Source: Halieaceae bacterium (lineage in GTDB: Bacteria; Pseudomonadota; Gammaproteobacteria; Pseudomonadales; Halieaceae). Taken from it: 64,000 nt of DNA. The stretch covers positions 1 to 64,000 of the forward strand of contig CACOYM010000003.1 of the NCBI GenBank assembly GCA_902631395.1. Reading direction: 5' to 3'. The position numbers were made by a program, and so were the translations under genes. Below, one piece after another: positions 8,756 through 61,988 of the stretch (positions are counted from its first letter, which is position 1; every line of letters begins with the position of its first letter). The notes under the pieces are model-generated. The model made no database searches. It was not told the origin of the DNA and was given only the letters and a program-made list of their open reading frames with translations.

Positions 8756-10588
8756 ATGCTGAGATTACCTGTCGTGGTGGCCGCAGGCGGCGTGAATAGC
8801 GCCGGACGGACATCCCGAAGACACGCTTATCGGCGAATGATTTGGGAACACCTCGCAGCCTCTGATCGCGCGGGCACTCAAGCCGCACTAGCTCAAATGA
8901 CGGAAAGGTCCGATACTGCCGATATACTTGCCCATACGTTGGTGCGCGAAATCGAGCCTGACTGGTTCGATTATCGGGCCGTGCCCTGGAACCGTCGGGT
9001 GCAAGTTGCTGAAGGGCAAGTGTCCTCGAATTTTGAGTATACCCCTGGCGGCATTGGTGAGGGCGCTGCCGTTGGTGGGATATCAGAGGCGGTATCCAAC
9101 AAGCTAGTGCGTGTGACGTTACCGAAAGGTTCAGAGGTCTTGCTTCCCAGTGTGCGGCGTTTCGACGTAAGCAGTGCCGGTCAGTTGCCCAGCGGTTTTG
9201 ACCCAGGTGTCTTATACCGCTCTCGCAATCACCCTCGCGCACTTCAGATGACCGTGTTTGCAGTATCTGACGCACTAGCAGACCTGGGGCTGGATTGGCA
9301 GGTGCTTGCAGATGCCGTCCCGGCCAATGCGATCAGTGTTTATGTCTCGGGCGCCATGGGGCAGCTGGATGAAGCAGGTTACGGCGGCATGTTGCGATCC
9401 CGCGCACTGGGGCGCCGCGTTACCTCCAAGCAGTGTCCATTTGGCTTTGCCGAGATGCCGGGTGACTTCATCAGTGCCTACGTGCTGGGTAGCGTCAGTG
9501 CGACAGGCCCCGCGTTGGGTGCGTGCGCGACGTTTTTATACAACCTTCGTCTCGGGATTGAGGATATTCGCCAAGGCCGCTCTCGCATCGCAGTGGTTGG
9601 CGCTGCGGAAGCGCCGGTCAGCGTTGAGGTAATGGATGGTTACGCAGCTATGGGGGCGCTCGCGACCGATACAGGCCTCAGGCAAATCGATGGTCTCAGC
9701 GATGACGCCCTGCCTGATCATCGCAGAGCCTGCAGACCTTTTGGTGAAAACTGTGGTTTCACGATGGCCGAGTCGGCTCAGGTGATAATTTTGATGGATG
9801 ATGCGCTGGCTTTGGAGCTTGGTGCGCCGATTCTGGCGGGCGCTCCCTTTGTTAGCGTGAGAGCCGATGGAGCGAAAAAGTCGATTTCCGGCCCTGGCGT
9901 TGGCAACTATTTAACTGTCGCGGAATCAGCCGCGACCCTGAGGAGCATTCTGAGTGAGGACCGATTGCGCCATCGCGGAATGGTGCAAGCGCACGGTACG
10001 GGCACCCCTCAAAACCGCGTCACCGAGTCAACGTTGCTCAGTAAAGTGGCGAAGGCATTTGGTGTGTCGAAGTGGCCGGTAGCGGCCATCAAAAGTTATG
10101 TTGGGCATTCATTGGGTGCAGCAGCAGGTGACCAGCTCACCGCAACCCTGGGCATTTGGAGGTATGGCGTCATTCCCGAAATCAGCACGATCGATGCGCT
10201 TGCGGGGGATGTTGTGACTGAGCGACTGGCCTTTGTCCTGAACCCACAATCTGCGGACGAGCTGGATTATGCGCTTGTAAATAGCAAAGGGTTCGGCGGC
10301 AATAACGCAACGGCGGCGCTTTTGAGCCCGGACGCGACCGCGGCGCTCTTGCGGCGGCATCACGGTGAACGGGCCATGGCGGCCTGGCGCGACAAGTTGG
10401 CCAGCGTGACCGAGGCGCAGTTGGATATCGAAACTAAGCGTCTCAGTGACGAGTGGACGCCATCCTACCGATTCGACGAGGACGTGCTGACCGATGCCGA
10501 CGTGACGGTGACAGATTCTGGCGTTGAGTTGGGTGAGCAGCGTGTTGACTTACGAGATGATTTGCCGGACGGATGGCGTCTAAAGTAA
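8756..10588 (+). CDS. fabY: Beta-ketoacyl synthase FabY
   Basis: A 610-residue long-form ketoacyl synthase that matches the FabY type known from Pseudomonas aeruginosa, which starts fatty-acid synthesis by condensing acetyl-CoA with malonyl-ACP. The N-terminus LPVVVAAGGVNSAGRTS..HAYRRM is characteristic. The nucleophile is C257 in LGACATFLYN; the two histidines lie in AHGTGTPQNRVTES and KSYVGHSLGAAAG. An AAGGA ribosome site sits seven bases before the ATG. The extra N- and C-terminal segments distinguish it from FabB/FabF. It stands alone, divergent from the GlxA-type regulator. Confidence 0.9.
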   Translation: MLRLPVVVAAGGVNSAGRTSRRHAYRRMIWEHLAASDRAGTQAALAQMTERSDTADILAHTLVREIEPDWFDYRAVPWNRRVQVAEGQVSSNFEYTPGGIGEGAAVGGISEAVSNKLVRVTLPKGSEVLLPSVRRFDVSSAGQLPSGFDPGVLYRSRNHPRALQMTVFAVSDALADLGLDWQVLADAVPANAISVYVSGAMGQLDEAGYGGMLRSRALGRRVTSKQCPFGFAEMPGDFISAYVLGSVSATGPALGACATFLYNLRLGIEDIRQGRSRIAVVGAAEAPVSVEVMDGYAAMGALATDTGLRQIDGLSDDALPDHRRACRPFGENCGFTMAESAQVIILMDDALALELGAPILAGAPFVSVRADGAKKSISGPGVGNYLTVAESAATLRSILSEDRLRHRGMVQAHGTGTPQNRVTESTLLSKVAKAFGVSKWPVAAIKSYVGHSLGAAAGDQLTATLGIWRYGVIPEISTIDALAGDVVTERLAFVLNPQSADELDYALVNSKGFGGNNATAALLSPDATAALLRRHHGERAMAAWRDKLASVTEAQLDIETKRLSDEWTPSYRFDEDVLTDADVTVTDSGVELGEQRVDLRDDLPDGWRLK

Positions 10589-12154: not shown

Positions 12155-13128
12155 GAGGGCTTCTGTTGCTGTGCTTTATGTTTGCGGCTGCCGAGGTTGT
12201 GGCTCATCGTTTCGCGCCTTCATTGCTTGAGGTGACTCAGCTATCCGAGCGGACTTTCAATGCGACTTGGAAAACACCGATTCAGAAAGTCTCCGCAATA
12301 CCGATCGAGCCGCGCTTTCCAGCGACTTGCAAGGCAATGTCCGTGTCGCCCTGGGTGCGAGAAGGCACGGGCATGCTGACGCAGACGCAGTATGAATGCG
12401 CGCATGGGCTCGTCGCTGAAACTTTGACGGTCACCGGTTTAGGTGAAAATCAATCATCGGTCTTGCTTCGTGTGAACCTAGCAGACGGTATCTTCCATCA
12501 AGCGGTTTTCACTGCTTCGGAGCCCGACTTCACAATACCGCAGGAGGGTTCAGCGGGCACTGTCGCACTGGATTACACCTGGTTGGGGGCGGAGCACATA
12601 TGGGCTGGCCCTGATCACCTGCTTTTTGTCATGGGATTGCTGTTACTGGTGGGGTGGAACCGCAGGCTTATCTATACCGTTACGGCTTTCACATTTGGAC
12701 ACAGCGTAACGCTGGCGATGGTGACATTAGGGCTATTTGATTACCCGGTATCGTTTGTGGAGTTCATGATCGCGCTGTCGATTTATGTGTTAGCGGTAGA
12801 GCTATCGCGTGGCGAGGGCGGTGGCGCTTTGTGGCGGCAACCGTGGTGGTTGGCAGGGGGTTTTGGTCTGCTCCATGGCATGGGCTTCGCTGGTGCCCTG
12901 GCTGAGACCGGCCTGCCTCAGTCGAATGTGCCGCTCGCCCTATTGTTCTTTAATGTCGGCATCGAGCTAGGTCAGCTGGCTTTCATAGCGTTGCTTGTGC
13001 TGATCGCAGTTGCTGGCGTGAACGTTATTGGCCAGCGCCTGAGAGCACTTAAGCCACTGCCGGTTTACGTCTTAGGCGGGCTTTCCGCCATGTGGTGTAT
13101 AGAGCGAGGTCTAGAGACACTCGCGTAA
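12151..13128 (+). CDS. HupE/UreJ-like membrane protein
   Basis: A 325-residue protein with a signal peptide (LLLLCFMFAAAEVVAHRF), a periplasmic domain to about residue 130, then six or seven membrane segments. The signature HIWAGPDHLLFVMGLLLL and TFGHSVTLAM carry the conserved histidine/aspartate set of HupE/UreJ nickel- or cobalt-permease relatives, and GGFGLLHGMGFAGAL adds another histidine. No urease or hydrogenase genes are near, so it belongs to the widespread HupE/UreJ_2 type of unknown substrate. It overlaps the upstream PpiC-like gene by four bases and meets the next gene tail to tail with no gap. Confidence 0.85.
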   Translation: MRGLLLLCFMFAAAEVVAHRFAPSLLEVTQLSERTFNATWKTPIQKVSAIPIEPRFPATCKAMSVSPWVREGTGMLTQTQYECAHGLVAETLTVTGLGENQSSVLLRVNLADGIFHQAVFTASEPDFTIPQEGSAGTVALDYTWLGAEHIWAGPDHLLFVMGLLLLVGWNRRLIYTVTAFTFGHSVTLAMVTLGLFDYPVSFVEFMIALSIYVLAVELSRGEGGGALWRQPWWLAGGFGLLHGMGFAGALAETGLPQSNVPLALLFFNVGIELGQLAFIALLVLIAVAGVNVIGQRLRALKPLPVYVLGGLSAMWCIERGLETLA

Positions 13129-13968
13129 TTAGGGGTCACCAGGCCAGTTTTTCATGGGAATGATGGGATGTAGGGCGATAGCCAACCCCTCATCGATCTG
13201 ATTCTCGTTTTCCAGTACATCGCGGCGACGCACGAACGCGGTTCCACTCCGGGTGTCTACGGCGTCGGTGACCTCCATTCCCCCTTCACCTGAGAAAACG
13301 CGCTCGAGGTTTATGTTGAACCACGCAATGCGCATTGAGGCTGCCGCTACCGCGCGTGACCAGTCAAACTCTGAGGTAACACCGCTACCGGCTCCCTGAA
13401 TAGCAGGTTTGCGTGTGACGCCGTCAAAGCGCGTAACGCGGTTGAGTCCTGTCTCGTAGTAAACATCTTTCTCAATAATGTCAGTGAAAATGATGCTACT
13501 GATGTCAGTTTGTTCTAAAAGTTGATCCTTAACTGCTTGTACGATTTGAATAAAGGACTTTTGGTTCACTCGGCCGGTTGTCGGATCGATCGGGTCACCG
13601 TAAATTAATACGGCGTTATTCCAACGCTGGGAGAATTCGCGCTGCGGTCGGACATTATATCCCGCGCTTTCGAGGTATTCTTGTAAGCGAGCGTCAACGA
13701 AGGCTTCGCGCTTCTTTAGGTAGTTCCGGGAAGGCCCACCCAAATTCACGTTCGCTATTACCACGACATTGCTATCCAGTTGCTCGAACAGCGCCTCCAC
13801 GAATATGTTGGTTGGGGTGGTGGCGTTATACCCACCGCCTACAGTGGGTGAGGCGCCACATCCCAACAAGCCGAGAACAATACTGGTCGTGATGCCCATA
13901 GACCGCAACAAGGGATTGGCCTTAGTCTTTCGAAGTGTTGTGCGAATCTGGAGATGCGACGCCATCAT
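13129..13968 (-). CDS. Putative lipoprotein, unknown function
   Basis: A protein of 279 residues from the ATG at 13968, which has a GAGGA ribosome site eight bases before it. A hydrophobic stretch ends in a lipobox-like LLGCGAS (Cys37), so it is probably anchored to a membrane; the 25-residue leader before it is long and a later start at 13899 is possible. The mature part has an alpha/beta look, with FVEALFEQLDSNVVVIANV and REFSQRWNNAVLIYGDPID. The general plan, a small lipoprotein with one alpha/beta domain, recalls LpoB/CsgG-type proteins, but I do not claim that family. It is convergent with the HupE-like gene with no spacer. Confidence 0.7.
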   Translation of the reverse strand: MMASHLQIRTTLRKTKANPLLRSMGITTSIVLGLLGCGASPTVGGGYNATTPTNIFVEALFEQLDSNVVVIANVNLGGPSRNYLKKREAFVDARLQEYLESAGYNVRPQREFSQRWNNAVLIYGDPIDPTTGRVNQKSFIQIVQAVKDQLLEQTDISSIIFTDIIEKDVYYETGLNRVTRFDGVTRKPAIQGAGSGVTSEFDWSRAVAAASMRIAWFNINLERVFSGEGGMEVTDAVDTRSGTAFVRRRDVLENENQIDEGLAIALHPIIPMKNWPGDP

Positions 13969-18572: not shown

Positions 18573-19184
18573 CTACATGCCGTTAGGAAACTTTGTCTGC
18601 TCCACAAAACCTTCATCTCTGACGTTCTCCAGCGCCCTCGCATAGGCGGTCAACAAGCGGAGGGAGTGTTGGCATCTCTCAACAAAACGTATATTGGCGT
18701 CGCTATCGTTCTCAGAGGGATCAGCATTACAAATTTTATGGACCTGCCTGGCGATTATATGCTCGGGTAACCAACACAAACGGCTGTTCTTATAACTACT
18801 AGTCCGTAACTCATTTATTACATAAGCCCCTCCCTCGCCCGCTGAGACCGCGCAGGCTAGAGCAGGTTTGTGCGCTAGTTCATCCGTTCCAGACCAAATT
18901 AAAAAAAAATTTTTCAAGGCTGCCGGCACCATGCCATGCCACTCGGGTGATACGAATACGAATGCATCGCTGGCCGAAAGTTGTTGCGCCAGTTGGCCAA
19001 AACCAGCCCAGTGGGATTCACCTCCTGCCAATTCCTCGTCCCAGAAAGGGAGAGGGTCTTGTCCTAAATCCAGCGTCCAGGTAGAGACGTTGAGTTTGTC
19101 CCGTAAAAAGTCACTGCAGAATTCCGCTACTTTGGCACTCTGCGAGTACTTCCTATGGCTACCTACAACCAATCCAATTTCCAT
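18573..19184 (-). CDS. NAD(P)H-dependent FMN reductase family protein
   Basis: A 203-residue flavodoxin-fold protein. The phosphate-binding loop VVGSHRKYSQSAKVA is at the N-terminus, and the SPEWHGMVPAALKNFFLIW segment is the flavin/dimer motif typical of NADPH-dependent FMN reductases (ArsH/ChrR/YieF relatives). It should reduce FMN or quinones in the cytosol. It is convergent with the RsuA-like gene, with 82 bases between the stops. Confidence 0.82.
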   Translation of the reverse strand: MEIGLVVGSHRKYSQSAKVAEFCSDFLRDKLNVSTWTLDLGQDPLPFWDEELAGGESHWAGFGQLAQQLSASDAFVFVSPEWHGMVPAALKNFFLIWSGTDELAHKPALACAVSAGEGGAYVINELRTSSYKNSRLCWLPEHIIARQVHKICNADPSENDSDANIRFVERCQHSLRLLTAYARALENVRDEGFVEQTKFPNGM

Positions 19185-19559
19185 GTTTTCAAATCACCAC
19201 TATTTTTAAATGTTATTGTCCCGAGGCAGTCGAATTCTCCTAAATCCTCTCGCAGAGCGATCTTTTATAGATGCTTTATGAAAGCCGACAGCATCCGCGG
19301 ATGACCATGCAGAATCTCGGGTAACCTAGAAATTCAACGCAACTCCCAATCAGTTTATACAAAGCGCAATAAATGCGGCAGTGAGCACTCTAAACAAGTA
19401 GTTATCCTGAATATTTCTGCACCAAATTAACCTGCATATTTCTTAGCCCAAATATTTATCTATCCTTCATCAAATTCTGCCCCATGATTGTGCGTGAGCC
19501 GGCGTGCATCATTATCCGCTCCGTTGGACAAACATCCTTATTGTATTAGAGAGATAATC
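19185..19559. other. Intergenic region upstream of a small membrane protein
   Basis: About 375 AT-rich bases between the FMN reductase start and the 32-residue peptide gene. It presumably holds both divergent promoters. I see no repeat, hairpin or further coding frame. Confidence 0.45.
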
Positions 19560-19658: not shown

Positions 19659-20143
19659 AACAGGGACAAGCTTGACTAACTGCCCTAGAAAGTGCGCCAA
19701 GTCCTCTATTTTCCGTTCTTGACGAGACATAACTCATACATCGTTAGCAAAGCCTATAACGTTCGCCAGCCAGCCTTACCCGGGCAGCAAGGGGCCCTAA
19801 CAAAACCGCACTTAGGCCTCCCAGGCGTGTGTATCTCACCAGGTTGTACAGCGGAGGCATGCCGAGCGTGCTCTCGAGGCCAGCTTTGGATACTGAGAAA
19901 CAGAGAAATCAAACGCAAAAATAAAGACGAATATAAAAAGTTAATCTATTTCCAGCGAGAGCGGTCGGCTTGAGAGAGCGCGAGGTTTTGACCAAGATAT
20001 CTTGATAGATACCTCGCAGAAAGATTACCGGAATCCGTCTGCTCAGCCTTACCCTTCAAAGCCAGATAAACGCGGCGATGTGGCCTCAACTATGCGGCAC
20101 ATACGCCTCTACCGGGGTTCAGGCACTACCCTAGTTATTTGAA
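19659..20143. other. Intergenic region, no supported gene
   Basis: About 485 bases before the proteorhodopsin terminator. A 93-codon open frame at 19692-19973 has no good start or ribosome site and a composition unlike protein, so it is not annotated. Nothing else is recognised. Confidence 0.45.
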
Positions 20144-20168
20144 GAGGAGCCAACACCGTTGGCTCCTC
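20144..20168 (-). terminator. Terminator of the proteorhodopsin gene
   Basis: An 11-base perfect stem (20144-20154 with 20158-20168) with a three-base loop lies 35 bases past the proteorhodopsin stop. On the minus strand it is followed by a short TTCAAAT stretch rather than a long T-run, so termination strength is uncertain, but position and stability fit. Confidence 0.7.
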
Positions 20169-20202
20169 AGTCAAAGGTTAGAAATTGAATGGGCCGTTGC
20201 GA

Positions 20203-20913
20203 CTAGCTTGCTGCGTCCGAGGAAGATGTCGCGGCTGACCAGATAACTACGCCAAATGCGATTTTATTGACGAAGTCAGCAAGGTTATAAACTAAGTTCA
20301 GCGTGGCGGCACTGCCGTCCCCTGCGTAGCCCCAAAGGTACCCTAAAGGATATATCGCCCAACCAAACGTCACGATAATCCGTAACGCTGAGAAGGCTTT
20401 ACGAGAGGCATCCGTACCTTCACTAGTATTTATCTTACTGGCTTCACCAATAAAGATTTCATAAATAATGTAGAGCCAAGCGGCCGTACCGATTATAAAA
20501 CCTCCCCAAAGGAACGTCGGCATGGATGCATTTACTTCACCAAGATACCCTGCCACCAGCATAGCCACCGATGCGACGAGTAATCGCCAAAACAGTCCAG
20601 CACCAATAACTGCGACTGCAGCAAGAATGAGATAGAACTCAATGATTTGCAGCGGGACAGTCAGGAGCCAGTCTACATAACGAAATACCGTTGGGCTCTC
20701 GCCTGTGGCGACCCAAACACCCCGCATGTAAAAATAGTGCAGAGCAGCAATGCCTGTGACCATCGCGGCAACGGTCAGCGATGTCTTCCATTTCCCAATT
20801 GCTCTGTCCCTTTCCACGAAGAAAAAGTATGTAGCTGCGAGCATTGCAGCCGAAATTACCCAAAATGAGACTCCCACATAGTCAGTTGGGTCGAGCATTA
20901 ATAATTTATCCAC
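20203..20913 (-). CDS. Proteorhodopsin, proton-pumping, blue-absorbing type
   Basis: A seven-helix light-driven proton pump of the inner membrane. From the GTG at 20913 (GGAGG six bases upstream; a TTG two codons earlier is worse placed) it has 236 residues. Helix C reads RYVDWLLTVPLQIIEF: Asp81 is the proton acceptor, Thr85 and Glu92 (donor) complete the DTE pump motif, and Gln89 stands at the tuning position (105 in the reference protein), where Gln gives blue and Leu green absorption. His59 is the conserved counter-ion partner and Lys217 in FVNKIAFG binds retinal. No cleavable signal peptide is obvious. No carotenoid or blh retinal-synthesis gene is in the window. A Fur-type site overlaps its promoter. 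Confidence 0.96.
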   Translation of the reverse strand: MDKLLMLDPTDYVGVSFWVISAAMLAATYFFFVERDRAIGKWKTSLTVAAMVTGIAALHYFYMRGVWVATGESPTVFRYVDWLLTVPLQIIEFYLILAAVAVIGAGLFWRLLVASVAMLVAGYLGEVNASMPTFLWGGFIIGTAAWLYIIYEIFIGEASKINTSEGTDASRKAFSALRIIVTFGWAIYPLGYLWGYAGDGSAATLNLVYNLADFVNKIAFGVVIWSAATSSSDAAS

Positions 20914-20953
20914 TTGCAACCTCCATAATTACCTCGCCAAATGCGAGAGAACA

Positions 20954-20982
20954 TTAGTAACGCAAATGATAATCATTATCAA
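20954..20982 (-). promoter_or_regulatory. Candidate sigma-70 promoter of proteorhodopsin
   Basis: On the minus strand TTGATA (20982-20977) is separated by 17 bases from TACTAA (20959-20954), a good -35 and a moderate -10 at the ideal spacing. Transcription would begin about 30 bases before the GTG start. The spacer is largely covered by the Fur-type palindrome. Confidence 0.5.
20962..20980. promoter_or_regulatory. Fur box overlapping the proteorhodopsin promoter
   Basis: The 19 bases match the classical Fur consensus GATAATGATAATCATTATC at 17 positions, with the central ATGATAATCATTAT palindrome intact. It lies between the proposed -35 and -10, where a bound iron-loaded Fur dimer would block RNA polymerase. 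This predicts derepression of the pump under iron limitation. Confidence 0.7.
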
Positions 20983-21187
20983 TAATAAGGTTTGCCTTTT
21001 TAACGCTTACCGATTGCTATGAGTGTTAGGAGTTTTAGCAGCCCGCCAGTCCGCTGCAATTAAATTGGCCTGCTAAGGTAGGAGCTGAGCTCGAGCGTTA
21101 TAGCTCGTGGGTTAAGGTTTTTTGGCAAACAATTTGAAAAAGCAGGGGCGTCTGGGTTGGGTTTCCAAAGCGCACAGGAGTATAGGT

Positions 21188-21299
21188 ATGCCTCAGAGGA
21201 TTGTGTTGACGACTACGGCGAGTGTCCCAAACAGCTGATATCCGTGAAGCTGTAGACACCACCCAAGACCTGTTTTTGAAAAACTACCCTGTGCGATAA
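21188..21299 (+). pseudogene. Possible remnant of a short gene, frameshifted
   Basis: An AGGAG site precedes an ATG at 21188 that encodes PQRIVLTTTASVPNS and stops. One base shift at about 21233 opens a frame reading ADIREAVDTTQDLFLKNYPVR to TAA at 21299. The two parts look like one small protein interrupted by a frameshift. No family is recognised, and a chance match is possible. Confidence 0.25.
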
Positions 21300-21446
21300 A
21301 GGCAAGAGCACGTAACTGGTAGTGCTCAATTGATCGCGAGCGCATTTATCACTCGTCGTCTGCTAATCGCGAACAACGCATACTCTTAAATTAGGAGCAG
21401 GAGCAAAGCCCGTGAGTTTTAAAAAGACACATAGACATAGATTTCA

Positions 21447-21740
21447 ATGATGAAACTCCATCCTTTGACGCTACTTTTTTTACCTTGGGTGCTAGTAGTC
21501 GCTGTGCAAGCAAACGAGTTTTCAGGTGCTCCAGCAACTGCATCGGATGACCCACCTCTAGTCTCAGATCTCTCGGTCGACCAGTTCACAGAATTGGTTA
21601 AAACGATCGTTCAGCAGACGTTGCAGGAATGTTCTGTTGAGGGAGATATGGAAGGTAAAGCAAAGTTGAATTTAGACGTCACCGGCGAGGTGACGGCGAG
21701 CATCGTTTGCAAAAACGATGCCGACGTTGACGAGGAGTAG
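21447..21740 (+). CDS. Small exported acidic protein, unknown function
   Basis: A 97-residue protein with a clear signal peptide (LHPLTLLFLPWVLVVAVQANE). The mature part is acidic and contains a helical segment (SVDQFTELVKTIVQQTLQEC) and a strand-like segment (GKAKLNLDVTGEVTASIVC), with two cysteines that may pair in the periplasm. No family is recognised. Two ATG codons in tandem can serve as start. It is convergent with the small membrane protein at 21804. Confidence 0.6.
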   Translation: MMKLHPLTLLFLPWVLVVAVQANEFSGAPATASDDPPLVSDLSVDQFTELVKTIVQQTLQECSVEGDMEGKAKLNLDVTGEVTASIVCKNDADVDEE

Positions 21741-21803
21741 GTGCTCGCGATTACTCGCGAAAGTGCCTCGTACCTCTTCCTGTGACGTTTCATTACCACG
21801 ACT

Positions 21804-22031
21804 TTACTTGGTGTTCTGAGCCAACTTGGTTTCCAGCTGCTGTAAGCGCTTCTCCAAAGTTTTAAATTTTACGGCAGCGTCGTTCTGTGCAGCCACCACG
21901 GCTACAAAGCCCCCACATAAGCCAGCCAATAGGGCCGTTACGGTTGTCAGGTCACCATAAAAAACAACAGCCATAAATGATGTGGCTAGAAGGATTGTGA
22001 AAATTCGAAAGTAGATCATTGCGCGGGCCAT
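21804..22031 (-). CDS. Small two-helix membrane protein with coiled-coil tail
   Basis: A 75-residue protein if started at the ATG at 22031; the frame is open 27 codons further but that part is not hydrophobic or conserved-looking. Two membrane helices (FRIFTILLATSFMAVVFYG and ALLAGLCGGFVAVVAAQ) are followed by a heptad-like charged tail, KFKTLEKRLQQLETKLAQ. Such proteins often multimerise or bind a larger membrane partner. No family is recognised. Confidence 0.55.
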   Translation of the reverse strand: MARAMIYFRIFTILLATSFMAVVFYGDLTTVTALLAGLCGGFVAVVAAQNDAAVKFKTLEKRLQQLETKLAQNTK

Positions 22032-22305
22032 AAATTGTTCATTTTGCTTAGAGACTTTAACGAATAACCGCGTGCTCTTGGGTAACCTTCCGTGACAAAT
22101 TAAACGCGCCAACAGCGCGGAAGTCTCTGAAGGTTGACGCTCACCGGATGCGATCAGTCATCGGGGTGGGTCTGGCAAACCCTCGTTAGCAGCGCGCGGC
22201 TTCCAACTGAACCTCGGCCGCAAAGTCAAGGAGGTTTCTTTGGAGGCTCCTGCATCTAACAAGAGGGTTGTAGCAGCTGCGCTGTGAGGGTTGCCCAACC
22301 AGTCT

Positions 22306-22375
22306 GCGACGCTAGATTCTTATTTCGCCGGCAAAATGATCAAGACGCTGATAAATTAGTCGTGTCTAGCGTCGC
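22306..22375. repeat. 70-bp element with perfect 11-bp inverted ends
   Basis: The 11 bases at 22306-22316 are the exact reverse complement of 22365-22375. A further GACGCT copy inside (22344-22349) can pair with the right arm as an alternative stem, and a short T-run follows. It lies 81 bases before the start of the exported NTF2-like gene. It could be a regulatory RNA fold or a remnant of a small mobile repeat. Confidence 0.5.
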
Positions 22376-22456
22376 CATTTTTACCCTCAGTAGACAATGA
22401 TCCGAATCAGATCTACTTTGTACCTCGATCCCTTCAGTCTCTCATAGAGGTTCCCA

Positions 22457-24033: not shown

Positions 24034-24852
24034 ATGACTTATTCGGAGGAGGAGCCATTGAAAGACCCCTATCTATTTTCTGTGAAAAATAATGTTGCGA
24101 CTTTTAGCGTCAACGACGAGCCGTTCAATCTGATGACCGTTGATTACATTGATCGTCTTGAGGAGCAGTTGCCTGATGTCCTTGCGGATAACGATATTCG
24201 CGCTATTGTTTTTACGGCTGAGGGTTTGGCCAATTTATCCGCAGGCATGGACTTGCGGCAGATCCCTGAGGGCATAAAACGATCGGGAAGCGCCGAGGCC
24301 TTTTTCTCGCAGCGCCATCGCGTGCTGGAAATGATTGAGACGGGCGGCACGCCAACTATTGCAACGCTGTTTGGTTATTGCCTGGGAGCCGGGCTGGAGC
24401 TACCTCTGGCCTGTCACTTTAGAATCGCCGCTAGTGAGGGCGCCAAAATCGGTCTGCCTGAGATGGATCTGGGTAGTGTGCCGGCATGGGGCGGGTCAGC
24501 CAGGCTGCCCAGAGTTGTGGGGTCTCCACACGCGCTAGATATGATTTTGCGAGCCAGAAAAATTGACGGTGCCGAGGCTTTCCGTATCGGCCTAGTCACA
24601 GAATTGGTGCCATTGGAGCTTTTAAAAGCGCGTGCACAGGCGCTCGGTGAGGAACTGGCGGCGCAACCGAGACTCGCGGTGAAAGGCGTGCTAGATACCG
24701 TGGTTAATTTCGGCTCGAAGACGATCCAAGAGTCGGTTGAAGACGAAAAGCAGGCGTCCCAAAACACGCTCAATACCCCCGATTGGCAAGAAGGCATGGC
24801 CGCATTTTTAGAAAAACGCAAACCAATTTTTAATCGCTATGAGGGACATTGA
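24034..24852 (+). CDS. Enoyl-CoA hydratase/isomerase (crotonase) family protein
   Basis: A 272-residue crotonase-fold protein. The oxyanion-hole segments are LANLSAGMDLRQIPEG and GYCLGAGLELPLACHFRIA, followed by GLPEMDLGSVPAWGGSARLPR; the acid residue lies in PEMDLG. Substrate type cannot be read. The ATG at 24034 is chosen, but a TTG at 24058 directly behind a strong GGAGGAGGAG site is an equally good start, which would remove an eight-residue acidic leader. Probably cytosolic beta-oxidation or a related acyl-CoA step. Confidence 0.85.
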   Translation: MTYSEEEPLKDPYLFSVKNNVATFSVNDEPFNLMTVDYIDRLEEQLPDVLADNDIRAIVFTAEGLANLSAGMDLRQIPEGIKRSGSAEAFFSQRHRVLEMIETGGTPTIATLFGYCLGAGLELPLACHFRIAASEGAKIGLPEMDLGSVPAWGGSARLPRVVGSPHALDMILRARKIDGAEAFRIGLVTELVPLELLKARAQALGEELAAQPRLAVKGVLDTVVNFGSKTIQESVEDEKQASQNTLNTPDWQEGMAAFLEKRKPIFNRYEGH

Positions 24853-44802: not shown

Positions 44803-45625
44803 TTGGCGCGGCAGCCTCCGTAAAATGGCGACTGAGTTGGCGGATCCAGTGCGCTACACAGTACTGGCCGAGCAGAGTGGGCCCTGCCTCAATGAGCTAT
44901 TGGGCAAAACGCTTTCCATTTTCTTCACTGGAGCAATTCATTGCGTGGCTTGCGATAGGTTGACCAAAAAGAGTTTCAATCAGGGCTACTGTTTTCCTTG
45001 TTTTCGCAAGCTCGCGGCCTGCGACACCTGCATTATGAGCCCTGAAAAGTGCCACTTGGCAGAGGGCACTTGCCGTGAGCCGGATTGGGCAGAAACGCAC
45101 TGTCAGGTACCGCATATTGTTTACTTATCGAATACCTCAAACGTCAAAGTGGGCATCACTAGAGAGACTCAGTTACCGACAAGGTGGATTGATCAAGGCG
45201 CGACACAGGCTAAACCCATTGCGAGGGTGCAAACCCGCTACCAATCGGGTCTTCTGGAGGTGCTATGCGCGAGAGAAGTTGGTGATCGGACGGCGTGGCA
45301 AACTATGCTTAAAGGTAATGGTGAACCACAGAACTTGGAAGGGATAAGGCAGCAACTGATGGAAACTTGTGCAAACGAAATTGCTGATCTCAAGCTACAG
45401 CAGGGCGAGTCGGCTTTTGAGCTATTGGAGGATGCGCAAGAGACGCAGATCGACTATCCGGTGCTCAGCTGGCCCGACAAAGTGAAGGCGCACAACTTTG
45501 ACAAACAAACTGAGGTCGAGGGGACTCTGATGGGCATAAAGGGGCAGTACCTGATGCTGGATACTGGTGTACTGAATATTCGGAAATTTGGCGGCTATGA
45601 GGTCGAGATCAAGGTAGGAGCGTAA
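44795..45625 (+). CDS. DUF2797 family protein
   Basis: A 276-residue protein with several cysteine pairs (HCVACDRLTKKSF, YCFPCFRKLAACDTC) that probably bind zinc, followed by a GIY-YIG-like segment (HIVYLSNTSNVKVGITRETQLPTRW). This arrangement is typical of DUF2797. The GIY-YIG resemblance suggests nucleic-acid binding or cleavage, unproven. Its stop codon shares an A with the pepN start. Confidence 0.85.
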   Translation: MTDWRGSLRKMATELADPVRYTVLAEQSGPCLNELLGKTLSIFFTGAIHCVACDRLTKKSFNQGYCFPCFRKLAACDTCIMSPEKCHLAEGTCREPDWAETHCQVPHIVYLSNTSNVKVGITRETQLPTRWIDQGATQAKPIARVQTRYQSGLLEVLCAREVGDRTAWQTMLKGNGEPQNLEGIRQQLMETCANEIADLKLQQGESAFELLEDAQETQIDYPVLSWPDKVKAHNFDKQTEVEGTLMGIKGQYLMLDTGVLNIRKFGGYEVEIKVGA

Positions 45626-48243
45626 TGGGATTACGAGAAGGTTTGCCTGGCACGATTTACCGCAAGGATTATCAAGCGCCGGCTTTCGGCATCGAGACGG
45701 TTCACCTCCGCGTGCAGATTGAGGAAGGCCGAACATTGGTTACGACAACGCTACAAATGATACGACAGCAGTCGGGTGCCGTGCCGCTAATGCTCGATGG
45801 CGAGCAACTGACGCTCAATTGGGTCGAGCTCGACGGTGTCCGCCTTGAATCGACGCAATATGAAGTCACAGACACTCAGTTGGTAATCGCCTCGGTGCCC
45901 GAGCGCTTCTCACTGCGGACCTGCGTCGTGATCAAGCCAGAGGAGAATACCTCTCTTGAGGGGTTCTACCGATCGCAAAGCGCCTACTGCACCCAGTGTG
46001 AGGCGGAGGGGTTTCGTAAAATCACCTTTTTCCTTGACCGGCCCGATGTTCTTGCGACCTACACGGTTGCGCTGGAGGCGGATCAGTCCAAATGCCCTGT
46101 TTTACTTAGTAACGGCAACCTGATCGAAGAACAATCGCTTGAGAATGGAAGGCATCGGGCGGTATGGCACGATCCGTTTCCGAAGCCGAGCTATCTTTTC
46201 GCGATGGTGGCAGGCGATTTAAAAGCTGTCAGGGATAGCTTTGTCACTGCCTCAGGCAAAGCCGTTGACTTGTTCATCTGGGTCGAAGCAAAAGATATGG
46301 GTTACTGCGATTATGCAATGAAGTCCCTGCAAGAGGCGATGCGCTGGGATGAGACTGTTTATGGTCTCGAGTACGACCTCGATCTATACAACATCGTTGC
46401 CGTGGATGATTTCAATATGGGTGCGATGGAGAACAAGAGCCTCAACGTTTTTAATACCTCCTGCGTGTTGGCCCACCCCGACATCACCACCGACATGGGA
46501 TTTCAGCGGGTCGAGGCGGTAGTGGCACACGAGTACTTTCATAATTACTCGGGGAACCGTGTTACCTGTCGGGACTGGTTTCAGCTCAGTCTGAAAGAGG
46601 GTTTTACCGTGTTTCGCGACAGCGAGTTCTCGGCTGATATGAATTCTCGCGGCGTCAAGCGCGTTGAGGATGCTCTGTTCCTCAGGACCCACCAATTCGC
46701 AGAGGACGCCGGCCCGCTGGCGCATCCGGTGCGCCCTGACGCCTTCGTTGATATCTCAAACTTTTATACGCTGACCGTCTACGAGAAAGGCGCGGAAGTC
46801 GTGCGCATGCTGCATACACTCTTGGGAGAAGCGGCCTTTCTGGCGGGCGCGGAACTCTACTTCAATCGTTTTGATGGGCAGGCGGCGACCTGTGACGATT
46901 TTGTGGACTGTATGGCGGAGGCGTCCGAGCGGGATCTAGAGCAGTTTCGGCGTTGGTATGAACAGGCTGGTACACCTGAGATCGCTTTTGATGAGCATTA
47001 TGACTCACAGAATCACCGTTACACTTTGACCTTGCGACAGCGCAACACCGCCACGAGTTTAAATGATCACCCGCCACCACTGGTTATTCCCGTAGCTGCG
47101 GGTTTGTTGCTTAATGGGAGTCCGCTTGCCTCGGGCGGGGAGACTACCCGAATCTTGGAGCTCGTCGAGCCAGAGCAGTCTTTTACTTTTGAGGACGTGC
47201 CCGATAAGCCGGTATTATCAATCCTAAGGGGTTTCTCAGCACCCGTGAGAGTGGCGACAGAGCAGTCTGAGTCAGACTTATTGGTCCTGATGGGTGGCGA
47301 TGATGATGCCTTCGTTGCCTGGGACGCTGCACAGAACCTGTTGTCCCGCGCGATTGAGCAGACAGCTTCCGATGCGGATATCGCTATAACAGCCGATTTG
47401 AGAAATGCCTGCGAGCAAGTCATAACGGGCTTAATGGATCCTGCCATGAAAGCCCTGACCCTTACACTACCCAGTGAAGAGTACCTCGCTGACCGCGCAG
47501 CACAGCGGGGGCTGGTTGATGTGGCGGCCCTGCACGCCCAGCGCATAAAGGTGAAGGCGGCATTAGGGAAGGCCTTGAGCGATTGCTGGCAGCAGGTGTT
47601 GGAAGCCTATCCCGCTCCAGGACACTATGCTCCGACAGCTGAGGATATTGGTATCAGAGCGTTTCGCCATCTTGCGCAGGATTACTTATTGGCCGCGAAC
47701 CCAGCGGAACTCGATGCGGCGCGGCAACTTTACCAGCGTGCAGATAACCTGACGGATCGCCTGGCTGCGCTGCGCTGGATAGCATCCTATGCTGTGCCGG
47801 AAGAGCGTGCCGGGGTACTTGATGCGTTCTATGTCAAGTGGCATCACGAGGCCTTGGTGGTGAATCAGTGGTTAACTATTCAGGCCACTCGTCCCGAAGC
47901 AGATTGCGTGGAGAGCGTTCAAGAGTTGATGGAGCATGAAGCGTTCGATTGGCGTAACCCCAATAAATTACGGGCGCTGATTGGCGCTTTTGCTGGGGGC
48001 AATCCGATTGCATTTCATCGAGCGGACGGCGCTGGGTACCGGCTGATGGGCGATGTCATAGAGCGTGTACAAGCCAGCAACCCGCAAATTGCAGCCCGCA
48101 TGCTGACCCCGCTCACGCGGTGGCGCCGTTATGCCGCCGGACAAGGTGCAATGCGCGCTGAATTAGAGCGTCTTGCGGCGATTAGTTCCCTCCCTAAAGA
48201 TGTCTTCGAGGTAGTGAACCGCGCGCTCAGTGATAACGGTTAG
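45625..48243 (+). CDS. pepN: Aminopeptidase N (alanyl aminopeptidase)
   Basis: An 872-residue cytosolic M1 zinc aminopeptidase. The substrate-anchoring GAMEN motif is at residues 266-270 and the HEYFH zinc motif at 302-306, with the downstream glutamate in LKEGFTVFRD; positions agree with E. coli PepN. The C-terminal half is the alpha-helical domain (DUF3458 type). It releases N-terminal residues from peptides. It is the last gene of the DUF1315-DUF2797-pepN run. Confidence 0.96.
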   Translation: MGLREGLPGTIYRKDYQAPAFGIETVHLRVQIEEGRTLVTTTLQMIRQQSGAVPLMLDGEQLTLNWVELDGVRLESTQYEVTDTQLVIASVPERFSLRTCVVIKPEENTSLEGFYRSQSAYCTQCEAEGFRKITFFLDRPDVLATYTVALEADQSKCPVLLSNGNLIEEQSLENGRHRAVWHDPFPKPSYLFAMVAGDLKAVRDSFVTASGKAVDLFIWVEAKDMGYCDYAMKSLQEAMRWDETVYGLEYDLDLYNIVAVDDFNMGAMENKSLNVFNTSCVLAHPDITTDMGFQRVEAVVAHEYFHNYSGNRVTCRDWFQLSLKEGFTVFRDSEFSADMNSRGVKRVEDALFLRTHQFAEDAGPLAHPVRPDAFVDISNFYTLTVYEKGAEVVRMLHTLLGEAAFLAGAELYFNRFDGQAATCDDFVDCMAEASERDLEQFRRWYEQAGTPEIAFDEHYDSQNHRYTLTLRQRNTATSLNDHPPPLVIPVAAGLLLNGSPLASGGETTRILELVEPEQSFTFEDVPDKPVLSILRGFSAPVRVATEQSESDLLVLMGGDDDAFVAWDAAQNLLSRAIEQTASDADIAITADLRNACEQVITGLMDPAMKALTLTLPSEEYLADRAAQRGLVDVAALHAQRIKVKAALGKALSDCWQQVLEAYPAPGHYAPTAEDIGIRAFRHLAQDYLLAANPAELDAARQLYQRADNLTDRLAALRWIASYAVPEERAGVLDAFYVKWHHEALVVNQWLTIQATRPEADCVESVQELMEHEAFDWRNPNKLRALIGAFAGGNPIAFHRADGAGYRLMGDVIERVQASNPQIAARMLTPLTRWRRYAAGQGAMRAELERLAAISSLPKDVFEVVNRALSDNG

Positions 48244-59817: not shown

Positions 59818-61896
59818 TCAGAGCGCTAGTGTGAGGCCGAGCACCGCACTCCGTGGCTCTCCCACAAAATACCGGTAGCTACCGAAACCAAAGTCCGCGC
59901 GTTCCGCATAGCCTTCATCAAGCAGATTTGTTGCCACTAGCGTGAGTGTCAGGTTGGGACTGACTTTCCACGCGGCGCGCAGATTGATTAGTTCGTGACC
60001 GTCGTACTCATGTTGGTTATTGGGATCTAGCCAGTACTTAGCCACCCACAGCCACTCTAGCTCAGCGCGGACTGGTTGATTCCGAGACGTAAAATCTGCC
60101 ATCAGCTGCACAGAACCAAAGTGTCGGGGAGATGTGTCGATATCGTTTCCTTGAATCGTCCCACGCGATCCCAATAGCTTAATGTCGCTGTCATAGCGGT
60201 GCCGGGCATAGCTACCGTTGCCTTTTAGCGACCACACCTCATCGATTGCCCAGCTGAAATTAAGCTCTACTCCGCGGTGCTCGGTTTCAGCACCAGATAC
60301 GTTGTAGCGGTCACGATCTTGAAAAATGACGTCGTCCTTCGCCATCCAGTAAGCCGCAACATCGTAATTCAGCACACCCACAACACCTCTGATCCCCAGT
60401 TCCAGTCCGTTGACCGTCTCTGAATCAATATCAGTGATGGTCTGACCCGACTGCAGCCGGTAAAGCTCAGTCGTTTGGGGCGCACGAAAACCTCTAGCCG
60501 CTTTGACGAATACGGTGCGATTTGCTGAGTGGTGGCTGAGCGCCAGGTTGCCTGTCCAGTCACCGAAGCTGTCCTTTTGGCTGGCAGGTCTGTAGAAGCG
60601 GCAGGCGCTAGCCGAGGGTGAACAGGCTGGACCGTCGTCGGTGCGGTTTTGGTAGTCGTAACGGGTTTCCTCAAGCCTGATGCCTGCGTCGAGTTGCCAC
60701 CGATCAGTGATAGACCAATCAAGATGTGTGAATGCGGCAATAGAGTCAGCGTCGACGTCATAGTCATAGTGGACGCCGTCGGGCTGGTTTGGACTGAAAA
60801 ACTCTGCCTGTGTCTCGAGAAGTGAGCCCTTCGTTCGGTCTACGTCCAAGCCTGCGCGCCAACCCAACTGATCCGATCTGCCACTGATCATAGCCTGCAA
60901 GCCAAAACTGCGATGCTGGTTTGTCTCGGTCGCCTTCCAGGGAAGATAGTGCTGCAGGAAGGTCATACTATTGCTGCGCCAGTAGGGCTTCAGAGAGACC
61001 TCTCCTGCAGCTCCCAAATTCCGACTGACATTCAGGTGGCCACGAGCAGACCACGCATCCCTGTACGCCTCAGGGTTTGGATTCTCCTCCCGCGCGTCGT
61101 CATCTTCATAGGCCTCAAAGCCACGAATATACCCCGCCGTCTCTTGGTCGAGGTTGCTGCCCTCCAAGGCGCCGGTCACCCGCCAGTCCTGAAACTCGTG
61201 GTCCAAGCGGAGTGTTGCCTTCTGCTGCTTGTATCCAGATTCCTCTTGATAGCCGCCATAGCGTGCGGTTTGGGCGGACAGAGCAAAGCTGTCAAAAGAC
61301 CCACTAGCGGAGAGCCGGTAGTAGTCTCGTGAACCCGCTTCCACTCGCACCTGATTTCGCGTTTGGGCGACGGTGGGGGTGAGCACGTTTATGATGCCGT
61401 GCAGTGCATTAGAACCGAACACCACAGTGGCGGGTCCTTTTAATACCTCAACTTTTCCGGCTTGCAGTAAGTTTGCATCGAAGAGCTGATTGACGTTGCA
61501 AAACCCCGGTGATCGAAGGCTGATCCCGTCTTGCGCCGTCATGAAAGCACCGCAGCTACCTGCACCTGTGAGTACTGGAGACCGGAGTGAGATCAAAGAC
61601 TCTTGACCATTGCCCCGACTAACCCAACTGCCTGCCACTCGATTGAATACCTGGTTGCTGTGCTGAGGGGCGATGCCTTGCAATTCGGACTGGCCCACAA
61701 TGGACCAGGAGGTCGGCAGCGTCGCGGCCAGATCTGCATTACGAGACGCAGTCACAATGACGTTCTCAATCCCCCTGTCGTCGTCGGGTTGATTTCCCCC
61801 TTGCTGTGCAGACGCTGGCGTCGCCGCGCCAATTGCCATCGCCCAAAAAATCGATACACACAATACCCGAGATAGCGGGGTCACATTGTTTATCAT
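59818..61896 (-). CDS. TonB-dependent outer-membrane receptor
   Basis: A 692-residue outer-membrane barrel from the ATG at 61896, with GGGAAGAGG upstream; a longer frame exists. After a signal peptide (LCVSIFWAMAIGAATPASAQ) comes the TonB-box-like IENVIVTASR, then a plug domain (about residues 45-160, GKVEVLKGPATVVFGSNALHGIINV) and a 22-strand barrel ending in the aromatic/leucine motif AVLGLTLAL. Two cysteines in the plug (GSCGAF, GFCNV) may form a disulphide. The ligand is unknown. No Fur-type site is seen in its short promoter region, shared with purC. It is a single gene, divergent from purC. Confidence 0.92.
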   Translation of the reverse strand: MINNVTPLSRVLCVSIFWAMAIGAATPASAQQGGNQPDDDRGIENVIVTASRNADLAATLPTSWSIVGQSELQGIAPQHSNQVFNRVAGSWVSRGNGQESLISLRSPVLTGAGSCGAFMTAQDGISLRSPGFCNVNQLFDANLLQAGKVEVLKGPATVVFGSNALHGIINVLTPTVAQTRNQVRVEAGSRDYYRLSASGSFDSFALSAQTARYGGYQEESGYKQQKATLRLDHEFQDWRVTGALEGSNLDQETAGYIRGFEAYEDDDAREENPNPEAYRDAWSARGHLNVSRNLGAAGEVSLKPYWRSNSMTFLQHYLPWKATETNQHRSFGLQAMISGRSDQLGWRAGLDVDRTKGSLLETQAEFFSPNQPDGVHYDYDVDADSIAAFTHLDWSITDRWQLDAGIRLEETRYDYQNRTDDGPACSPSASACRFYRPASQKDSFGDWTGNLALSHHSANRTVFVKAARGFRAPQTTELYRLQSGQTITDIDSETVNGLELGIRGVVGVLNYDVAAYWMAKDDVIFQDRDRYNVSGAETEHRGVELNFSWAIDEVWSLKGNGSYARHRYDSDIKLLGSRGTIQGNDIDTSPRHFGSVQLMADFTSRNQPVRAELEWLWVAKYWLDPNNQHEYDGHELINLRAAWKVSPNLTLTLVATNLLDEGYAERADFGFGSYRYFVGEPRSAVLGLTLAL

Positions 61897-61988
61897 GGCT
61901 GACCTCTTCCCGAGGCCGATGCCCCGTGACAAAGTCGTGCATTCTGGGCAAAACTTCCCAACATGCCAAGTTCAAAGGAAAAGACACA

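Follow-up and report, generated by a model that had tools for sequence, protein, structure and literature searches.

Here, we report a predicted proton-pumping proteorhodopsin (PR) gene with a blue-type residue that lies behind a near-perfect Fur box in the draft bin of a marine bacterium, probably of Halieaceae, and the same bin carries genes for a bacteriochlorophyll photosystem. The window (the whole stretch of DNA analysed, 64,000 nucleotides) comes from contig C3 of this assembly (G000; 2.30 Mb, 60 contigs, 88.8% complete, draft). We put the probability that Fur controls the PR gene at roughly three in four, and the pump would probably be made when iron runs short. The gene and the box had been described in an initial annotation and both held up; its interpretation was supported in part, and it had missed both that the same bin carries photosystem genes and that no blh was found in it.

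Table 1. Features of the PR gene and its upstream region (window coordinates).
Feature	Position	Strand	Evidence
Proteorhodopsin (PR) CDS, 236 aa from GTG 20913 (alternative TTG 20919)	20203..20913	-	PF01036 E 4.8e-46; PDB 4jq6 E 1.3e-84, 2l6x E 1.7e-81
Likely ribosome-binding site GGAGG, six bases 5' of GTG	20920..20924	-	Direct reading
-10-like ACTAAT, spacer 18 (alternative TACTAA, 20954-20959, spacer 17)	20953..20958	-	Weak by consensus
Fur box GCAAATGATAATCATTATC, 17/19	20962..20980	.	Consensus match
Perfect 7-1-7 Fur core TGATAATnATTATCA, 14/14	20967..20981	.	Overlaps Fur box
-35-like TTGATA	20977..20982	-	Consensus match

The window PR belongs to the bacteriorhodopsin-like fold family. 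Aligned to solved proteorhodopsins, it retains D, T and E within RYVDWLLTVPLQIIEFY, together with the helix-B His and the retinal Lys, and has Gln at the tuning position, where 4jq6 has Gln and the green PR 2l6x has Leu. All of these residues have established functional roles in PR, and the alignment bears out the earlier claim of a pump motif with Gln at the spectral tuning position. The GTG is probably the start, being likelier than the upstream TTG because the latter abuts GGAGG. No PR relatives were confirmed among viral contigs, and the plasmid matches to PR (8 records) were all below 60% identity. A 21-mer from the box region matches 7 viral contigs. The PR locus adjoins a rearranged site, with the remnant of a ybjQ-like gene start at 21188-21238 (MPQRIVLTTTASVPNS, then a stop); the same ybjQ-like gene is intact in genus member G028, where it adjoins a homologue of the 97-amino-acid gene at window position 21447. 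Flank matches are scattered among the genus genomes, and a PR-less empty site is not reconstructable from them.

Against the 19-base Fur consensus of general knowledge, used for all scores, the box reaches 17/19 on the + strand, as had been claimed, and 16/19 on the - strand. It is the one place in the window with three or fewer mismatches (0.00 expected; 100 shuffles of the window), and the 7-1-7 core at 13/14 or better likewise occurs at a single place in the whole window. A chance match as the origin of the box was ruled out by the shuffles (none in the window) and by a reversed-pattern control (0 in the genome). The window also contains a TonB-dependent receptor (59818-61932) without a Fur box, the PR box being the sole one in the window. 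The box had further been placed between TTGATA and TACTAA at a spacing of 17; this pair exists and spans the box, but it scores 8/12, and the top pair is TTGATA-18-ACTAAT (9/12), equalled by the neighbouring TTAAAA-17-GATAAT (9/12). A promoter scan did not pick the TTGATA pair; its sole match was TTAAAA-17-GATAAT, and it carries no weight as evidence because 1 match was found where 2.3 were expected in shuffles.

This layout bears on how Fur would act. Fur can act as an activator at some promoters, and binding here as an activator or minor modulator, so that iron shortage does not raise PR, is a highly improbable reading given that the space between promoter hexamers is the usual site of a repressor. 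The box might instead be genuine and serve another target (a small RNA under Fur repression, or a gene on the + strand), PR then being expressed constitutively or in response to light or starvation: the box is palindromic, the ~465 bases from it to the 97-amino-acid gene hold no + strand-starting open reading frame of at least 60 amino acids, and RpoS-linked PR is described for other bacteria in the available part of PMC3380642. We regard this as unlikely, since Rfam gave no match in 19900-22400, the + strand of 19800-21600 has no promoter- or terminator-like site, and the box overlies a promoter-like pair, with 48 bases between it and the PR start, a layout repeated before the PR gene of a second genus member (G032). 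The putative operator on the promoter is strong sequence support for repression of PR by Fur, relieved when iron is scarce, as had been proposed; Fur binding, repression and induction are what we infer from it.

At three or fewer mismatches, Fur boxes occur at 6 distinct places in the assembly (9 rows), against 0 and 0 for the reversed-pattern control, and the PR box is joint second-best among them. Two of the remaining five precede a TonB receptor of heme type (exceeding the cut-offs of TIGR01786 and TIGR01785), whose cluster contains PF01497, FecCD, ABC ATPase and ABM genes; one precedes an imelysin and TonB receptor pair, and one the binding-protein gene of an ABC importer. An Fe(III)-type identity for this importer was withdrawn, its proteins reaching no NCBIfam cut-off. 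The last box (L119:13807-13825, on contig C18 of G000) lies between the genes for nickel superoxide dismutase (sodN, above NCBIfam cut-off; 13048-13530) and a 2-hydroxyacid dehydrogenase, 277 bases from the sodN start and ~115 bases from the dehydrogenase gene. Judged by predicted gene content, three of the five boxes accompany evident iron or heme genes, and the other two stand at places not clearly of that kind; if its box targets sodN, nickel superoxide dismutase may be another iron-sparing product in the regulon besides PR. The PR box is of the same kind as those at Fur-controlled iron-uptake promoters such as that of the G000 heme receptor, but its target is a light-driven pump.

Fur itself was not found in the G000 assembly (88.8% complete), where the only Fur-family protein scores best as Zur and below cut-off. 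A Fur-like match above 130 bits is present in 33 of 37 genus genomes (G000-G036, also the genus members of the PF01036 search), the exceptions being G000, G012, G028 and G032. In G034, where the match exceeds the NCBIfam Fur cut-off, the gene stands in a stretch that starts with dnaK and continues with grpE, hrcA, recN, fur, ratA and smpB (hrcA, recN, fur and smpB above NCBIfam cut-offs, ratA below, dnaK and grpE called by eye). A DNA search with this stretch gave nothing in G000, G032 and G028, five matching pieces in G006 and two in G012. Because dnaK is normally essential, we read the absence of the neighbourhood as a bin gap; true loss of Fur with the box as a relic was judged less likely, as the whole dnaK-recN-fur-smpB neighbourhood is absent too. 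Oddly for the bin-gap reading, the 4 of 37 genus genomes without a true Fur include both of the bins that carry PR.

PF01036 was detected in 10 of 117 relatives and, within the genus, in G000 and G032 only. Searched at the DNA level, 57 genus genomes likewise yielded the PR stretch only in G032 (at most 5 candidates scored per genome; a diverged PR could escape). There, the PR gene adjoins heme-uptake genes, flanked on one side by an ABC importer, an enoyl-CoA hydratase and a dehydrogenase; its other side holds the heme receptor gene with PF01497, FecCD, ABC and ABM genes. G032 boxes precede PR (15/19), the binding-protein gene (15/19) and the heme receptor (14/19). The PR box holds the same promoter position as in G000, spanned by TTGCGA-18-TATACT (9/12) at 44 bases from the start against 39 in the window; CTGCCA-17-TATCAT also scores 9/12. 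A 13-mer, AAGGTTTGCCTTT, is common to window 20987-20999, beside the PR box, and L121:10882-10894, beside the G032 heme-receptor box, possibly by chance.

Across 115 rhodopsin upstream regions (80 from named genomes and 33 from others, plus G000 and G032; 107 different proteins, so some are repeats), two reached 15/19, both in the genus: G000 with 17 (0 of 500 shuffles) and G032 with 15 (1 of 500 shuffles). Matches of 14/19 before L031, L052 and L013 (p 0.012, 0.022 and 0.046) fall within the noise of a comparison of 115 regions. No comparable box precedes the PR gene of G365, the closest same-family and best order-wide match (79% identity; best 11/19), or the remaining 112 rhodopsins compared. 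Genes for a polyprenyl synthase, a CrtI-like protein, phytoene synthase, lycopene cyclase and Blh lie 3' of the G365 PR gene. The initial annotation had named absence of the box from close relatives that carry PR as evidence against Fur control. In G032, the one further genus member found with the gene, a box is present, but the PR is interrupted and mosaic; same-family G365 has none. Two neighbouring rhodopsin genes (G112:C18; L089, L098) occur in a 1.3-Mb genome from the same order.

The G032 rhodopsin gene (L121:9412-10137) carries in-frame stops. In windows along it, the 5' and 3' ends are closest to the window PR by modest margins, the middle is closest to a Methylophilaceae PR, and ~9501-9650 is closest to other PRs. 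A tree, for which the G032 input was the in-frame 3' part only, placed this PR beside Methylophilaceae and did not bear out a sister relationship of the two genus PRs, which form no single clade; a number of its joins are weak or connect long branches. The G000 PR does not group with that of G365 either. Differences between the G000 and G032 genes by codon position (38/230, 22/230 and 119/232; alignment made across indels) follow the pattern of genes whose protein product is conserved. The mosaic is either natural recombination or a chimeric assembly, and the G032 box was either inherited with the gene ends or arose independently. Descent of the two PR-box units from one ancestor is not established, because the comparison comprises one species with a frame-interrupted mosaic PR.

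Such features, along with the draft state of the bins and the placement of PR (C3) and the photosynthesis genes (C12) on separate contigs of one bin, would also fit a binning or assembly artefact in which either the PR locus or contig C12 is foreign or G032 is chimeric. Several observations make this improbable. PR is flanked by DNA 73 to 81% identical to genus members (18574-19214, 21134-21234, 21333-21725 and 24059-24835), and the 872-amino-acid protein at 45625-48243 has 77% identity in G034. In G032 the coding sequence of this protein, too, is spread across three frames, so indels are general in that bin. Phytoene synthase, whose G000 copy lies inside the photosynthesis cluster, is present in 5 of 6 genus genomes searched.

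On contig C12 of G000, pufL, pufM and puhA all exceed their NCBIfam cut-offs; the contig also encodes a Mg-chelatase subunit, subunits of a nitrogenase-like reductase (bch-type) and a member of the crtI family. Because pufL, pufM, puhA and bch-type genes share a bin with PR, the host bin is, by predicted gene content, a genetic dual phototroph, and the host is probably an aerobic anoxygenic phototroph. We read it as a probable, Luminiphilus-like member of Halieaceae; the 872-amino-acid protein has 54% identity in Halioglobus DT_44 and in same-family G365, but 52% in another family. A PF00124 reaction-centre subunit is present in G032. No blh was found in G000 or G032, against 5 of 11 genomes in the same search. 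Phytoene synthase occurred in 7 of 10 genomes and PF03055 oxygenases in 10 of 10, G000 having one partial match above cut-off and one below. Family members that carry PR but no blh have many PF03055 carotenoid-oxygenase-type genes, G061, G062 and G453 each giving 9 to 10 match rows. As no blh was found, retinal may come from outside and a working pump is not assured; retinal is either external, made by some further route, or made by genes in the missing part of the bin.

Blue-type PRs of other Halieaceae (Halioglobus sp. HI00S01 and H. japonicus) have the DTE motif with Gln at position 105, and most PR strains lack retinal genes, according to the available sections of PMC10100682; the window PR is alike in motif, in tuning residue and in that no blh was found. 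Those sections mention no Fur box before PR, whereas the G000 PR has one. As far as the accessible text of PMC10100682 and PMC3679898 goes, Halieaceae strains have PR or bacteriochlorophyll genes and not both, unlike the G000 bin. Genomes of dual phototrophs are already known, some Gammaproteobacteria included: excerpts of PMC7701988 list Tardiphaga and others, with 3 gammaproteobacterial bins among 9 of its own plus 55 public genomes, and those of PMC13043013 list Sphingomonas glacialis AAP5 and marine Alphaproteobacteria. Like these, G000 has both a proton-pump rhodopsin and genes for a reaction centre; the alphaproteobacterial cases, as far as these excerpts show, are xanthorhodopsin operons (with blh in PMC13043013), whereas G000 has a lone PR under a Fur box with no blh found.

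For Pelagibacter ubique (SAR11), Fur has been proposed in the light response, with relaxed motifs only and no classical Fur box (PMC3090418, in the portion available). G000 would resemble it in tying Fur to the energy metabolism of a PR bacterium and differs in its near-perfect box. Earlier studies found PR expression to be regulated with iron limitation (cited in part of PMC9040609), and iron-linked PR expression in Photobacterium angustum S14 is cited in the passages available of PMC9040609 and PMC9607633. G000 would likewise be a PR bacterium under iron limitation, but two Photobacterium PR regions (L045, L049) had no box above noise (best 12/19). Among the matches listed for open-access titles and abstract openings, none described a Fur box before a proteorhodopsin gene.

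PR needs no iron; cytochromes and bacteriochlorophyll systems do. Under Fur control as predicted here, PR would be transcribed on its own, with the Fur operator occupying the space between the -35 and -10 hexamers of its promoter. With sufficient iron, Fe-Fur would cover the promoter between the hexamers and repress it; as iron falls, the pump would be produced along with heme uptake. PR could then serve as an iron-free light-energy module at times when respiration and photosynthesis, both rich in heme and Fe-S, are difficult to assemble and, because it needs no iron, could sustain the membrane potential, TonB transport included. We infer that light would in this way replace iron-rich energy systems, and the chance of a physiological benefit of iron-linked PR seems to us slightly short of even. 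More tentatively, iron may choose between two phototrophies, an acquired iron-free pump in the Fur regulon being deployed, with retinal from the surroundings, when cytochromes and the photosystem are unaffordable.

So far, the link between iron and rhodopsin has been suggested by physiological work on diatoms and other bacteria, and a role of Fur in it has been a matter of speculation for SAR11 only. If true, our reading would supply a concrete operator tying iron limitation to rhodopsin phototrophy, and it would give a reason for keeping two light-harvesting systems, one iron-costly and efficient and the other iron-free.
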